From: Alphaproteobacteria bacterium
GTDB lineage: Bacteria; Pseudomonadota; Alphaproteobacteria; SMXQ01
Length of the DNA stretch: 36,713 nt
Assembly (NCBI GenBank): GCA_009380075.1
Contig: WHSO01000030.1
Coordinates: forward strand, 1-36,713
Direction: 5' to 3'
The notes beneath the pieces were generated by a model. It was not told the origin of the DNA, did no database searches, and worked only from the letters and a program-made list of their open reading frames with translations. Shown piece after piece: positions 28,374 through 34,175 of this stretch. The translations under genes and the position numbers were made by a program. How positions within the stretch are numbered: the first letter of the stretch is position 1; the number at the start of each line of letters is the position of its first letter.

Positions 28374-28388
28374 GTTCCTGTTTTGTTC
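28374..28388 (+). promoter_or_regulatory. LexA-type operator (GTTC-N7-GTTC)
   Basis: GTTC at 28374-28377 and GTTC at 28385-28388 are separated by exactly 7 bases (CTGTTTT). This is the known LexA (SOS box) consensus of alphaproteobacteria. It lies 32 bp upstream of the ATG at 28421 and just after the thiC terminator, where the promoter of that gene must be. LexA control of the gene is inferred from the site and its position. Confidence 0.65.
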
Positions 28389-28420: not shown

Positions 28421-29230
28421 ATGAGCCGCATAGACGAACTGTTGGCAGAAGCGTCGAAGCTGAGAGAAGCCGAGAACTGGCAGGGACTCCTGCAACTGCT
28501 GGAATCGGGAGTGGCGGCGTTTCGCGAATCCGGCGCCGACGAAGATGCCGCCAGAATTCTTTTCGACATCTCCTTCGTGCCGGAGGAAACCGTCGGCTAC
28601 GAGCGACGGGTATTCGCAGCCCGCGAGGCCGCCGACATTTTCGAGAGATTGGGGAAGTTGAGCGAGGCGGCCAAGGCGCTCTGGCGCGCGGCACAGTGCC
28701 AAAGCATGAAAGCCGACAGTCTCGACGAAGAGGACGATCCGGACGCCGAGAGTGTCCGCGAATCCGCCCTGGAGGATTTCGCGAGGGTCGCCCTCCTGTA
28801 CGAGCAGGCGGGCGACTCGCTGCAGAGCGCCCTCACCCGGGTCGAGATGGGGCAGATCCACCAGCTCGGTCCGCAGGAGCACGATATCGCCCTCGATCAC
28901 TACGAGGTGGCGGAACCGGTCATCCGCCGCCTCGGGACCGGGGACGACCTTGCGGAATGCCTGCTCTACAAGGGCGTCGCCCTGTACGAGCTGCAGGGCG
29001 GCGACGAGGATCTCGTCGCCCTCCTCCGCGAGGCCCTGGAACTTTACCGTGCATCGGACCTCGACCATGGGCAGGAGCTGGCGCACATGTACCTGGTTCA
29101 GGCCGCCGCCACCTACGATCCCGACGAGGCGCGCCGATGCGCCGAAGCGGGACTTGCCTACGCCCGGGAGACTGGCAACGATTCCCTGGCAGGGGACATT
29201 CAGGACACTTTGGCGCGGATGGAGGACTGA
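28421..29230 (+). CDS. helical-repeat (TPR-like) protein of unknown function
   Basis: A 269-residue acidic, almost entirely helical protein, probably cytoplasmic. Paired helices with TPR-like spacing recur: AAREAADIFERLGKLSEAAK near 67-86, ALEDFARVALLYEQAGDSLQ near 115-134, LLREALELYRASDLDHGQEL near 204-223, and ARRCAEAGLAYARETGN near 238-254. I recognise no named family and no enzymatic motif, so it is more likely a scaffold or binding protein. ATG 28421 follows GGGGG a few bases upstream, a moderate ribosome site. The frame is open much further upstream inside thiC, but that is a shadow. An exact LexA-type box in its promoter region suggests induction by DNA damage. Confidence 0.85.
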   Translation: MSRIDELLAEASKLREAENWQGLLQLLESGVAAFRESGADEDAARILFDISFVPEETVGYERRVFAAREAADIFERLGKLSEAAKALWRAAQCQSMKADSLDEEDDPDAESVRESALEDFARVALLYEQAGDSLQSALTRVEMGQIHQLGPQEHDIALDHYEVAEPVIRRLGTGDDLAECLLYKGVALYELQGGDEDLVALLREALELYRASDLDHGQELAHMYLVQAAATYDPDEARRCAEAGLAYARETGNDSLAGDIQDTLARMED

Positions 29231-30076: not shown

Positions 30077-30100
30077 GGGGTGTTGCCCTGATGGTGAGAC

Positions 30101-30132
30101 GTCATGCCCCGGCGTCGTCTGGGACACATCCA
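30101..30132. repeat. degenerate copy of the palindromic repeat
   Basis: GTCATGCCCCGG followed by a degraded right half (TGGGACACATCCA) resembles the dispersed element at 25881 and in uvrD, with several mismatches in the second arm. It lies between pcm and its terminator. Confidence 0.45.
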
Positions 30133-30199
30133 CCCCACCGCCAAGGCGAAGACGCTGCCCGCCGCCAAACAGCGCACGGACGTTCCCCGAGAAGACGAA

Positions 30200-30231
30200 G
30201 GGCGGGGGGTGATCCCCGCCCTTTCTCTTTT
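30200..30231 (+). terminator. rho-independent terminator after pcm
   Basis: GGGCGGGG (30200-30207) and CCCCGCCC (30214-30221) form an 8-bp stem with a 6-base loop, followed by TTTCTCTTTT. Confidence 0.85.
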
Positions 30232-30297
30232 GCGCCTTATCTGGGCACGGAGATTGCGCTACTTTCGCGCGAGAGAAGGACAGTTTGGATATAGGCC

Positions 30298-30639
30298 ATG
30301 GAATCTACGCGGCAAGAGAACACTGAGTTAAAGTACTTGTATCGCGACGCGTCGAACTACAAGTGGTTCGATTCCGTCATTCTTTCCGGCCACCTTACCC
30401 TTGATGACCTAAAAAAGTACCTGATAGACGGCGAATACTTCGTGCCTGAATTGGTCGGAATGAGGTGTCTGACACCAGAAATGCGCAACGAAGACGATCA
30501 TGATTGGCATGAAATCGTTGCGCTGAAGCCCACATCTCTTGCCGCGAACTTCCTATCCGCGGAGGAACTTGTACTAAAATTTAAAGCGCAACATCTCGCT
30601 GGTTGGCCCTATCTCCCGAAGGGTTGCAGATTTGGCTAG
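30298..30639 (+). CDS. small conserved-type protein of unknown function
   Basis: A 113-residue protein beginning MESTRQENTELKYLYRDASN. The segments YLYRDASNYKWFDSVILSG, IDGEYFVPELVG and DDHDWHEIVAL look like a widespread family of short uncharacterised proteins often found in accessory regions. This is recognition from memory and no function is implied. The base composition is visibly more AT-rich than that of pcm or thiC, which suggests acquisition by transfer. No strong ribosome site precedes the ATG. The 3' end overlaps the next gene by 8 bp, so the two are probably co-transcribed. Confidence 0.75.
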   Translation: MESTRQENTELKYLYRDASNYKWFDSVILSGHLTLDDLKKYLIDGEYFVPELVGMRCLTPEMRNEDDHDWHEIVALKPTSLAANFLSAEELVLKFKAQHLAGWPYLPKGCRFG

Positions 30640-31075
30640 AGGAAAGCCATGGCAAAGAGAGGAAACTCTTCAGGCAATCGAGCTCTATTGCCTGACGCCA
30701 TTCGGGCGCATCCATCGTAGGAATCCCGATATCATCGCGTTGGCGCGAAGCCTCGACCGCACCCCGGATTCCATCGCTTTGAAGATGGTCAATTTCGCCC
30801 ATCTCGATCCCACGCTCGATCGGCAAGGCATGCACCATGTCTCGCAATTGGACCGGGAGTTATGGGCAGAATTTTTCGAGAACCCAGATGCGTTTTTTGC
30901 GGAACGCGCTGTCGCAAAAACTTTACCACCGCAAGCCCATGACGGACTGCCAATGGACGCCGGCTTTCGCGAAGGCGGAACCTACGAATACACGACAAAA
31001 GGGCGGAAAAATCAGGACTATTTTCGCGACATGATATTGGCGAGGCACATCGCCAGACGCATCGAGCGCGATTGA
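30632..31075 (+). CDS. probable HNH-endonuclease N-terminal domain lacking the HNH part
   Basis: The 147-residue frame starts at TTG within the end of the preceding gene. Its N-terminus (KPWQREETLQAIELYCLTPF, then NPDIIALARSLDRTPDSIAL and KMVNFAHLDPTL) resembles the N-terminal domain of certain HNH restriction-type endonucleases. KGRKNQDYFRDMILA near the end resembles the segment that leads into the HNH domain in those proteins. The product stops about there, and no HNH Cys/His residues follow before the terminator. It is therefore either a truncated remnant or a stand-alone version of the domain. An RBS-like GAAGGG precedes the TTG. The gene is AT-rich compared with the core genes. Confidence 0.65.
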   Translation: MARGKPWQREETLQAIELYCLTPFGRIHRRNPDIIALARSLDRTPDSIALKMVNFAHLDPTLDRQGMHHVSQLDRELWAEFFENPDAFFAERAVAKTLPPQAHDGLPMDAGFREGGTYEYTTKGRKNQDYFRDMILARHIARRIERD

Positions 31076-31081
31076 ATTAAT

Positions 31082-31113
31082 AAAAGGGTGGGGTCGCCCC
31101 CCGTCCTTTTTTT
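31082..31113. terminator. bidirectional terminator between convergent genes
   Basis: AAAAGG and GGGG on the left pair with CCCC and CCTTTT on the right, with a small internal mismatch, and the stem is flanked by T-runs in both directions. It separates the gene ending at 31075 (+) from tcmP ending at 31112 (-). Confidence 0.75.
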
Positions 31114-32023
31114 ATCGCCTTAATGCTTGTCCTTGATTCAAGATATACGCGGCGATTTTGGCGCCAGTTTCATTCGGCCCAGCGAAAAAAAGATAATACA
31201 AATGGCTGCCTTTGGTGTTGCAGATCAAACGAGGCGATGGGGCAAAACCAAACAACTTTTTCAGTCGTTTTCTATACCATCCGACAAGCCTTTCGCCTGA
31301 GTCTCTTGCTTTTGTGATGCCTATATCACCGAATAAATTTTCGGCTTTCTCATAAAGCAACTCTTCCCATTCCGCGCTTCCGAAATAAGAATTCAGCATT
31401 TCCCGCTGGGCAAGATTAATATCACCGGACTTTGGCAACAAACGCTGAATTGCCATCCCGACGGGCAAATTTAAAATAGTCTCAACTCCTTTGGTTGATG
31501 CAATTGCTTCAATCGTGGACCAAGGGACCTGCATTCCAAAAGGGTCCAAGAACATAACAGCTCGACAACTTTTCCAATTGATGCCCTTGTCGAATAGAAA
31601 ATTTCGAATGGATTGATTCGCATCGCCCTCTCTAACTTCGATATTCCGGCTCCCAGCATATTCACGTTGTATAGATCTGAGTTCGTTCGCCCTATGATGG
31701 TCCTTCTCAACAAAAAAATACTTTGAAAAAGGATGCTCGATATCCAAGGCGACGAAAGGAGAACCATTAACGTAGGACAATTCTTCGGGGTCGTTGGAAT
31801 GCATGGAACTGATCTCTAAGGGCAACAAGTTTGGATTGTCTTTCTTTTCCAATTGCCGAATTGCGTTTCGGCCAGCCCCCGCGAACGCGTCGAAATAATA
31901 ATAGCCACGGCACCAATCCTGCTTCTTCATTATCTTCGTATACTCACGAAGATATCTTCCGAGGCAGTCGAGTTTTTCTCGAGCCCAAGGACCAACCTTT
32001 CCATCTCGGTTGTAACTCGTCAT
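31112..32023 (-). CDS. tcmP: three-Cys-motif partner protein TcmP
   Basis: TcmP proteins are defined by their regular pairing with three-Cys-motif proteins of the phage Gp37/Gp68 (DUF5131) family, and that partner lies directly upstream here. The 303-residue product looks like a class I AdoMet-dependent methyltransferase. It has a motif-I-like loop YFDAFAGAGRN at about 43-53, the acidic segment FFVEKD (103-108), GD at 133-134, and FLDPFG at 158-163 in place of a typical motif IV. The substrate is unknown. The start overlaps the partner's stop (ATGA), so the two are coupled. The gene is clearly AT-richer than the neighbouring core genes. Confidence 0.9.
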   Translation of the reverse strand: MTSYNRDGKVGPWAREKLDCLGRYLREYTKIMKKQDWCRGYYYFDAFAGAGRNAIRQLEKKDNPNLLPLEISSMHSNDPEELSYVNGSPFVALDIEHPFSKYFFVEKDHHRANELRSIQREYAGSRNIEVREGDANQSIRNFLFDKGINWKSCRAVMFLDPFGMQVPWSTIEAIASTKGVETILNLPVGMAIQRLLPKSGDINLAQREMLNSYFGSAEWEELLYEKAENLFGDIGITKARDSGERLVGWYRKRLKKLFGFAPSPRLICNTKGSHLYYLFFAGPNETGAKIAAYILNQGQALRR

Positions 32024-32775
32024 TCCGCCGCCAAACCCGCAAAGGATGCTGACAGGACTTCGGGGAATTCATCCCAAGTCTGGCCGTTGATCGCCCGGCC
32101 ACCGGACTTGGGCCTCACCCCGCCCCATTGCTTAAAGAAGAACGCAACCCGTGCGGCGACACATTGGTCGCGCACCTCTTCGATCCACTCACTCTTGATG
32201 GGACGGAAGTTCGGACCGCTCTCTCCTCCGACGATTACCCAATGGATGCCGCCGAGATCGAGTTTGCCGACCGGCCCCAGCATCGGCTCGATGGAAAGGA
32301 ACCGTATGGACGCGTTCATCGCCTGGACATGGCGAAGGCGCGAAAGCTGCGCGCGCGTTTCCAGTGAGGTGCCGAGCCAGATATGGGCCGGCGCACGACC
32401 GCCGCGATAGCGTGCGTTGACGAAGTTCCGCATGCGCGGACTGCGCTTCGTGAGCACCTGGTACGTATGCCAATGCGCTTTCTCCATGGTCACGAAAACA
32501 CGCTCGACGAAATCCGTCGGCACGTCCTTGTGGAACAGGTCGCTCATGGAATTGACGAAGATCATGCGCGGCTGGCGCCATTTGAGCGGTTGTTCCAGCC
32601 GCCCCGGCCGCAGCGTCAGGTCGAAACCACTTTCAAACGGGTGTCCCTTGACACCTCGGAACCGTTCCGCGAACCGCTCGGCGTAACAGTGGTCGCAACC
32701 GGGACTGATTTTCGTGCAGCCCGTCACCGGGTTCCACGTCGCGTCGGTCCATTCGATGGCAGACTTGTCGGCCAT
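32020..32775 (-). CDS. phage Gp37/Gp68 (DUF5131) family three-Cys-motif protein
   Basis: The 251-residue product has the family signature WNPVTGCTKISPGCDHCYA with Cys at 20, 27 and 30 (C-x6-C-x2-C), a spacing like iron-sulfur radical-enzyme motifs. Further family segments are IFVNSMSDLFH, WLGTSLET, RFLSIEPMLGPV, and VIVGGESGPNFRPI followed by FFFKQWGG. Its biochemical role is not established. An ATG at 32787 is also open, but ATG 32775 has GAGGGTGG in front of it and fits the predicted transcription start near 32791. A LexA-type box overlaps the predicted -10 element. tcmP follows, coupled by ATGA. Confidence 0.92.
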   Translation of the reverse strand: MADKSAIEWTDATWNPVTGCTKISPGCDHCYAERFAERFRGVKGHPFESGFDLTLRPGRLEQPLKWRQPRMIFVNSMSDLFHKDVPTDFVERVFVTMEKAHWHTYQVLTKRSPRMRNFVNARYRGGRAPAHIWLGTSLETRAQLSRLRHVQAMNASIRFLSIEPMLGPVGKLDLGGIHWVIVGGESGPNFRPIKSEWIEEVRDQCVAARVAFFFKQWGGVRPKSGGRAINGQTWDEFPEVLSASFAGLAAE

Positions 32776-32792
32776 ATCCACCCTCATGATAA

Positions 32793-32827
32793 GAACAAAT
32801 AGTGAACATTTTTGCCGTGCGGGTCAA
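32793..32827 (-). promoter_or_regulatory. LexA-type operator and promoter for DUF5131-tcmP
   Basis: On the + strand, GAAC (32793-32796), seven bases, then GAAC (32804-32807) give an exact alphaproteobacterial LexA site; on the transcribed strand it reads GTTC-N7-GTTC. It overlaps a candidate -10 (CACTAT, the complement of 32799-32804), which lies 17 bp from a good -35, TTGACC (the complement of 32822-32827). LexA bound here would block polymerase. The site ends 17 bp before the ATG at 32775. Confidence 0.7.
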
Positions 32828-32844
32828 CCATAGAACGCGCGAAT

Positions 32845-32880
32845 CCCTGCGCCTAGAGGAAAAATCCTTTAGGCGCAGGG
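32845..32880. other. long near-perfect hairpin between tctC-like gene and DUF5131
   Basis: CCCTGCGCCTA (32845-32855) and TAGGCGCAGGG (32870-32880) pair over 11 bp. The stem continues inward with GAGGA against TCCTT (one G-T pair) around an AAAA loop, giving about 16 bp in total. It lies 20 bp beyond the stop of the tctC-like gene and could end that transcript, but neither side has a T-run. Confidence 0.6.
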
Positions 32881-32900: not shown

Positions 32901-34175
32901 CTACTTGCAGTCGATCTTTGGGGCGAGGTCGCCTTCGCCGAAATACGCGACCGTGCAGGCCATGCCTTGCTTCAGCGCCGAGGCCTTGGCCTTCTTGCCG
33001 CCGACGGTCACCTTGGAGCGCTTGGCGTGGACGCGGACGTTGACCATCTTGCCGCTGCCGTCCTTCACCGTCATGCGCTTCTTCGACACCTTGGCGATGG
33101 TGCCGTCGGTGCTCTTGAGCTTGACCTTGGCGACCTTGCCGATGTCGAGCGCCTTGCGCGCGCGGTCCACCACCTTGTCGGAATAGGAGTGGAAGCGGAC
33201 GATCAGCTTCTCCACCGCCTCGCCGTTCATGGGATCGACGTTGAGGCCGCGCTTCTTGGCCTCGGCGAGGAAGGCCGGGTCCTTCATGGTGGCATCGAAG
33301 GCCGCGCGCAGGGCCCTGGTGCGGTCGGCCGGGAGGGCCGGCGGCGCGCCGATGGGGCGGCCCAGGGTCTGGCGGCCGTAGATCAGCTCCATCGCCTTCT
33401 TGTCGTCCTCGGACCGGGCGTAGTCGTAGATGTGCGGCACGCCCTTGAGCGCCGGGTCCGGCTCGAACCCGTTCTGGACGATGACGATGAGCCGGCCCGA
33501 CTTCCAGTCGTCCTGGCGCACCGACTGCAGGGTCGACAGCGCCATGGCGCAGGAGCCGTCGACCTCGCCGCGCTGCATCGCCAGCAGCACGCCGGTGCCG
33601 CCGGCGTAGCCGTGGATGACCTGGGCATGGGCATTGACCAGCGCGTTCATGGCGCGGGGGAATTCGCTCATCACCCCGGTCGCGCCGCTGGCGCCGAAGA
33701 TGCTGGGCTTCGACAGCACGTCGTTCATGTTCCTGATCTTCGAATTGTGCCACACGGCGCAGGTGCCGGTGGATTTCTCGGCATTGCCGATCCAGGTGAA
33801 CCTGGCGGTCTCGAACTGCGCCTTGGTGTTGCCCATCAGCGGCGCGAAAACGGCGCCGGCGCTGAAGGCGCCGATGACGGAGCCGTCGCGCGCCGCGCTG
33901 TTGTACATCCAGTTGGCGGCGAGCAGGCTCGACGCGCCCGGCATGTTGCGGATGACAAAGGTGGGATTGCCCGGAATATGGCGCGACATGTGGCCGCCCA
34001 TGGCGCGGGCATAGGCATCGTAGCCGCCGCCGGGCGGCAGGCCGATCACCAGCGAGACGTTCTTGCCCTTGTAGAAATCGGCGACGCCGTCGGCGAAGGC
34101 GGCCTGCGGCAGGGCGAGGCCCGCGGCCGCGGCGAGGATGGCAGAGCAGGCAAACGCGGGACGGGAAAACGGCAT
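32901..34175 (-). CDS. tripartite tricarboxylate transporter-type binding protein with extra C-terminal domain
   Basis: The 424-residue product has a signal peptide (PFSRPAFACSAILAAAAGLA, ending near LPQAAFA). A TctC/Bug-type periplasmic binding fold follows: GKNVSLVIGLPPGGGYDAYA, GNPTFVIRNMPGASS, and GYAGGTGVLLAMQRGEVDG. These proteins normally end near residue 320-330. Here a further domain of about 75 residues follows (DGTIAKVSKKRMTVKDGSG to the end). It resembles the small beta-barrel extensions found in some secreted proteins. No membrane components TctA or TctB are adjacent, so it is an orphan receptor. ATG 34175 with GGAGG upstream is preferred over the GTG at 34187. Confidence 0.88.
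   Translation of the reverse strand: MPFSRPAFACSAILAAAAGLALPQAAFADGVADFYKGKNVSLVIGLPPGGGYDAYARAMGGHMSRHIPGNPTFVIRNMPGASSLLAANWMYNSAARDGSVIGAFSAGAVFAPLMGNTKAQFETARFTWIGNAEKSTGTCAVWHNSKIRNMNDVLSKPSIFGASGATGVMSEFPRAMNALVNAHAQVIHGYAGGTGVLLAMQRGEVDGSCAMALSTLQSVRQDDWKSGRLIVIVQNGFEPDPALKGVPHIYDYARSEDDKKAMELIYGRQTLGRPIGAPPALPADRTRALRAAFDATMKDPAFLAEAKKRGLNVDPMNGEAVEKLIVRFHSYSDKVVDRARKALDIGKVAKVKLKSTDGTIAKVSKKRMTVKDGSGKMVNVRVHAKRSKVTVGGKKAKASALKQGMACTVAYFGEGDLAPKIDCK

Follow-up and report, generated by a model that had tools for sequence, protein, structure and literature searches.

The window, that is, the whole stretch of DNA analysed here (36,713 nucleotides of an alphaproteobacterial contig), carries on its reverse strand two genes overlapping by 4 bases, which encode a DUF5131 protein and TcmP (Table 1). 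Upstream of the DUF5131 gene and on the same strand lies tctC, which ends at 32901 and leaves an intergenic gap of 125 bp. Within this gap, the original prediction had placed an exact GTTC-N7-GTTC box, the motif of a LexA operator, and an exact match is indeed present there on the reverse strand. The claimed 17-bp distance between box and start codon holds with the ATG at 32775, which is taken as the start because homologues begin with MADxSxIEWT; a further in-frame ATG is found at 32787. Since tctC is read from the same strand and stops ahead of the box, the box can serve DUF5131-tcmP only.

Two other elements of the gap were considered. The promoter that had been proposed to overlap the box (TTGACC at 32827-32822, a 17-bp spacer and CACTAT at 32804-32799) exists as a motif, but it is absent from the list returned by the promoter scan and its score is too low, so it was rejected as evidence. 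The perfect 11-bp inverted repeat between tctC and the box may mark the end of tctC transcription; as a terminator ahead of the box it was rejected, having no T-run and being unscored by the terminator scan. The pair itself lies in a low-GC islet, which is consistent with horizontal gain of the window copy.

Table 1. Features of the DUF5131-tcmP locus in the window and LexA/UmuD-family genes next to homologous pairs
Feature	Record	Position	Strand	Remark
LexA (SOS) box GTTCACTATTTGTTC	window	32793..32807	-	17 bp upstream of DUF5131 start codon
Possible promoter TTGACC-17-CACTAT, weak	window	32799..32827	-	overlaps box; 8/12 consensus bases
Perfect 11-bp inverted repeat CCCTGCGCCTA...TAGGCGCAGGG	window	32845..32880	.	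between tctC and box
DUF5131 protein (PF07505), 251 aa, radical-SAM-like	window	32020..32775	-	Pfam E 1.3e-96
TcmP (TIGR04474), 303 aa, class I methyltransferase fold	window	31112..32023	-	NCBIfam 188.9 bits vs cut-off 53
ORF, 147 aa, PADLOC HNH restriction nuclease match 23-164 of 286	window	30632-31075	+	
Low-GC islet	window	30100..32850	.	43-62 percent vs 67-73 percent in flanks
UmuD-like gene	L062	977-1495		upstream of pair
Helix-turn-helix + S24 peptidase gene	L165	1866-2504		upstream of pair, Comamonas plasmid
LexA relative	L158	4283-4942		upstream of pair, deltaproteobacterial genome

GTTCN7GTTC is the published LexA motif of Caulobacter (PMC12700426). The source genome encodes one LexA above the family cut-off, whose gene (at C109) is preceded by GTTCTAGTTTAGTTC, and its DinB-family polymerase gene carries GTTCACTTTCCGTTC 22 bp ahead of the start; together with the Caulobacter motif, these boxes identify GTTCN7GTTC as the motif expected for this host. 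Across the genomes carrying the modules, the same motif was found at 20 of the 21 lexA promoters with located starts. A further control is offered by splB, encoding the SplB/PA0069 radical-SAM protein, which is reported to belong to the SOS genes of alpha- and betaproteobacteria (PMC3323433) and to be under SOS control in other groups too (PMC8565304): its GTTCN7GTTC box was present in 21 of 24 alphaproteobacteria, including the source genome (C77, GTTCTTGATTTGTTC).

The site in the window, taken by itself, is not decisive. About one chance match per window had been predicted, in agreement with the computed expectation of 0.97, and three exact matches occur in the window (9617 -, 28374 +, 32793 -), a number reached by 7 of 100 shuffles of the window. 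The whole genome contains 99 matches, compared with 49 for a reversed control pattern, and with so many matches a single box is weak evidence alone. The simplest rival explanation is therefore that this 8-base match, with about 100 of its kind in the genome, arose by chance and is unused by LexA, a reading that draws further support from the half of the alphaproteobacterial modules without a box. Two kinds of evidence, one from the site and one from its homologues, argue against it. A spacer model trained solely on splB boxes of other genomes, with the own site excluded, ranks the window site 7th among the 99 genome matches, and the spacers at DUF5131/TcmP sites have a median score of 6.0 in this model versus -11.1 for the 99 genome matches, in addition to which the gap serves this operon only.

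The second kind of evidence is conservation of the box at homologous promoters, which had been named as the check on the original prediction. DUF5131 homologues were gathered by protein similarity only, from whole genomes belonging to the same phylum or class as the source genome (the class being taken as Alphaproteobacteria, to which most of the nearest named relatives belong), named genomes, plasmids and phages (beyond Pseudomonadota, the sampling drew on plasmids, one phage and a scan of named genomes), and a box was counted when it fell within -150 to +30 of the operon's first gene, with the background taken from the same loci. The exact box was present in 34 of 69 alphaproteobacterial modules, where about 0.4 were expected (0.0059 per -150 to +30 interval), corresponding to a binomial p of about 1e-56, and in 26 of 41 modules of the subfamily to which the window copy belongs. 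The box also follows the first gene of the operon, in that it precedes tcmP in three tcmP-first modules (L068, L069 and L197). When 28 sites were aligned on the box, the flanks were 27 percent identical, which is the chance level, and information was limited to ATGTTC-n4-TTT-GTTCT; moreover, the DUF5131 tree requires the box to have been gained or lost 15 times or more, with 8 of these changes forced by well-supported branches. Judged from these alignments and the tree, box conservation is attributable to selection on a site and not to leftover ancestry. The site at the Methylobacterium brachiatum module, GTTCTAATTTTGTTC, is one example. Taken with the same motif at host lexA promoters, conservation across modules upholds the reading of the box as a LexA operator, and makes an unused chance match very unlikely.

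Half of the alphaproteobacterial modules lack the exact box, many of them in LexA-bearing hosts, and this counts against the LexA reading. Three box-less modules (L079, L080 and L070) belong to genomes without a LexA above the cut-off (G036, G167 and G120, respectively). The box was also absent from three Rhizobiales plasmid copies added later, outside the 69.

In modules from other bacteria, the exact box is near chance (2 of 75), and LexA-type boxes of other kinds occur only here and there. One Rhodococcus and one Arthrobacter plasmid copy carry TCGAACAAGGGTTCGA and AGAACACGTGTTCT, respectively, and CTGT-N8-ACAG boxes occur at two copies from Gammaproteobacteria (L212 and L195), that of L212, CTGTTCTTATATACAG, lying 37 bp upstream of a leading tcmP. 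A Kofleriaceae copy (L123) has CTGAACAGATGTTTAG two bases ahead of the start, which, read backwards, fits the LexA consensus of Myxococcus. The majority of the modules sampled from Actinobacteria and Gammaproteobacteria are without a LexA box, so SOS control is not universal and is sporadic there; an SOS box common to the whole family was accordingly rejected, as most Rhizobium plasmid copies sampled have none either. Two such Rhizobium plasmid copies, L275 and L276, show a different partial motif just before the start (gtttacc-n6-tggtacaat and gtttacc-n6-tgatacact). In three distant lineages, a LexA/UmuD-family gene lies immediately upstream of DUF5131-tcmP on the same strand (Table 1). Overall, the module is mobile, and it appears to be tied to SOS regulation by the host in the majority of the alphaproteobacterial lineages sampled from its main subfamily, and sporadically elsewhere.

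The DUF5131 protein had been described as iron-sulfur-like, a description that can be sharpened. It matches PF07505 with 323 bits against a gathering cut-off of 28.9, and contains the cluster motif C20-X6-C27-X2-C30-Y31; the three cysteines and the tyrosine of this motif, as well as C205, do not vary among 48 homologues drawn from many phyla. A search of the PDB by sequence gave no match for DUF5131 or TcmP. In the AlphaFold2 model (pLDDT 88.9), the predicted fold is a radical-SAM partial TIM barrel, nearest to that of spore photoproduct lyase (SPL), to which all six best fold matches belong (Foldseek and VIA-align). VIA-align gave Z values of about 13 over roughly 195 residues (best 13.1, 194 residues), and the next radical-SAM enzymes, SuiB, viperin and RlmN, followed at Z 11.3 and below. 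Profile comparison with the PA0069/SplB family gave an E value of 1.9e-4 and a score of 38, whereas the best of 60 column-permuted controls reached E 0.027 and a score of 23.6, and the LexA and TcmP controls were negative. The SplB/PA0069 side of this alignment reads NPYRGCE---HGCVYCFARP, and DUF5131 does not have that three-residue gap. The SPL family models of Pfam and NCBIfam did not match DUF5131, and no profile match linked it to two proteins that weakly match the SPL model TIGR03886. Membership of DUF5131 in the SplB/SPL family models was hence rejected, the similarity to PA0069 proteins being remote and at the profile level. From the predicted structure and the profile alignment, we conclude that DUF5131 is a remote SplB relative whose cluster motif carries an insertion of three residues; it is most likely a small radical-SAM enzyme akin to SplB and SPL.

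Comparison with known systems shows both the likeness and its limits. DUF5131 and splB/PA0069 (COG1533) have in common the LexA box and its spacer preference, their hosts (those in which 21 of 24 splB genes carry the box), the radical-SAM class and an NP..GC...GC..C(Y/F)A motif. DUF5131 is shorter, with a CX6CX2C motif and a TcmP partner, and it is patchy and mobile, whereas splB is a stable chromosomal gene. SPL of Bacillus and Geobacillus, the best structural match of the DUF5131 model, has CX3CX2C where DUF5131 has CX6CX2C in all 48 homologues, and no spores are involved in the case of DUF5131. The tyrosine after the third cluster cysteine is Y98/Y99 of SPL and has a role there (PMC3742179); the invariant Y31 of DUF5131 occupies the same place directly after the third cluster cysteine. 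The hydrogen donor of SPL is C140/C141, and DUF5131 has the invariant C205 as its fourth conserved cysteine. A weak full-length similarity to rSAM_mob_pairA (TIGR04471), likewise mobile, is seen in all 48 homologues; at 63 bits, DUF5131 stays far under the 355-bit cut-off of that model, whose partner is a second radical-SAM protein.

The description of TcmP as methyltransferase-like can be sharpened too, the predicted structure pointing more precisely to an RlmJ-like fold. The closest folds to the AlphaFold2 model (pLDDT 90.1) are RlmJ (Foldseek 2.9e-9, Z 14.6) and Trm1. RlmJ is the 23S rRNA A2030 N6-methyltransferase, whose FAGxG SAM motif is kept in TcmP, whereas the DPPY of N6-adenine enzymes is replaced by DPFG in the window TcmP. 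A winged-helix domain (PF22560) was found in 18 of 45 TcmPs, the window TcmP not among them. In a Latescibacterota genome, DUF5131 and TcmP are fused into one 634-aa ORF (L090 1161-3065), which supports joint action of the two proteins.

Taken together, DUF5131-tcmP can be regarded with high confidence, on the sequence evidence, as an operon under LexA control. LexA on the box would cover the promoter and keep the operon off; upon DNA damage, RecA would be activated, LexA would cleave itself and the pair would be made. From the sequence we infer LexA binding and damage induction of the operon, and from the structural models radical chemistry and an action of the pair on nucleic acid. In the proposed scheme, DUF5131 would act on a damaged or modified base, reversing or rewriting it by means of a 5'-deoxyadenosyl radical, and TcmP, as its RlmJ-like SAM-dependent methyltransferase partner, would bind or methylate that base. 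The explanation as a whole, a LexA-repressed mobile module acting on nucleic acid, appears likely to us, and its last part, joint radical reversal or rewriting of a base as suggested by the models, falls a little short of an even chance.

The settings of the module bear on what it does with nucleic acid. The pair is found across many phyla, with DUF5131 homologues in 404 plasmid and 161 phage records. The window pair itself consists of adjacent matches to PADLOC PDC-M41A and PDC-M41B. PDC candidates were chosen by their embedding among defence genes (PMC10855318), so that PDC-M41 and PDC-M30 are phage defence candidates by genomic embedding, with SOS control outside their definition; the papers retrieved contained no experiment on anti-phage activity of PDC-M41. 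These settings, namely phages, plasmids and restriction genes, point to defence as much as to repair and count against the repair reading. If the module is an anti-phage defence set off by the SOS response, attack by a phage or induction of a prophage would damage DNA and lead to LexA cleavage, and the pair would alter phage nucleic acid or host RNA, its radical-SAM and methyltransferase steps serving no repair. Defence would account for the PDC-M41 assignment, for the restriction genes, McrC, DUF262 and DNA methyltransferases neighbouring plasmid copies, for the temperate Gordonia phage Fairfaxidum, which keeps the pair in its immunity cassette (L278 1792-3733), and for the low-GC islet of the window copy with its adjoining 147-aa ORF, which stops ahead of the HNH domain and is probably a truncated defence gene. 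Repair, on the other hand, is favoured by the SplB-like fold, since the enzyme with the nearest fold repairs DNA, and by the analogy with splB, a presumed repair gene under SOS control. Weighing these, we rate a repair function as a little short of an even chance and a defence function as only slightly less probable.

The Fairfaxidum pair sits between helix-turn-helix genes, beside the integrase and the immunity repressor. In pCAR1-type Pseudomonas plasmids (L164 1500-4511, L172 1500-4579), a gene for a site-specific integrase precedes the pair by 30 bp or less on the same strand; a LexA box was not seen at these two pairs.

A third rival holds that the SOS hookup merely times expression to host trouble, such as transfer or prophage induction, the enzymes themselves being unrelated to DNA damage. 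The plasmid and phage records and the low-GC islet would fit such a marker of mobility; the box, however, also accompanies chromosomal copies from many families and tracks the first gene of the operon, and the SplB-like fold links the pair directly to DNA repair, which makes this reading improbable.

The literature offers little on the pair. A search of open-licence papers found none on DUF5131 by name and none on SOS control of DUF5131-TcmP, and TcmP received passing mentions in gene lists only (PMC12445080, PMC12429752). Papers of the Aravind group on SOS components and defence systems mention SplB-like radical-SAM proteins and not DUF5131 or TcmP. SOS control of SplB is already known; what is new here is a mobile, SOS-controlled radical-SAM enzyme paired with a methyltransferase. 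Only tentatively do we suggest that the pair is a previously unrecognised mobile, SOS-induced radical-SAM system of nucleic acid repair or rewriting, in which an SplB-like enzyme and its methyltransferase partner would use radical chemistry to reverse a lesion in DNA or a modified base. LexA control, combined with a fold nearest to a radical-SAM DNA repair enzyme, makes the function of DUF5131-TcmP addressable by experiment, and suggests that the SOS response may run, in addition to splB, another radical-SAM system of the repair type, or a candidate phage defence armed by damage.

Elsewhere in the window, a second strong LexA-type box, GTTCCTGTTTTGTTC, lies at 28374-28388 (+) and shares 3rd place among the 99 matches when these are ranked by the splB-trained model. 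It ends 32 bp upstream of the ATG at 28421 of a gene that is located between thiC and pcm and encodes a TPR-like protein; this is possibly a further SOS gene. An identical box, GTTCCTGTTTTGTTC, occurs in the same genome at L033 1501-1515 (C58:9744-9758), flanked by an ORF for a BglII-type restriction endonuclease (111 bp off) and an ORF of the carboxymuconolactone decarboxylase family.
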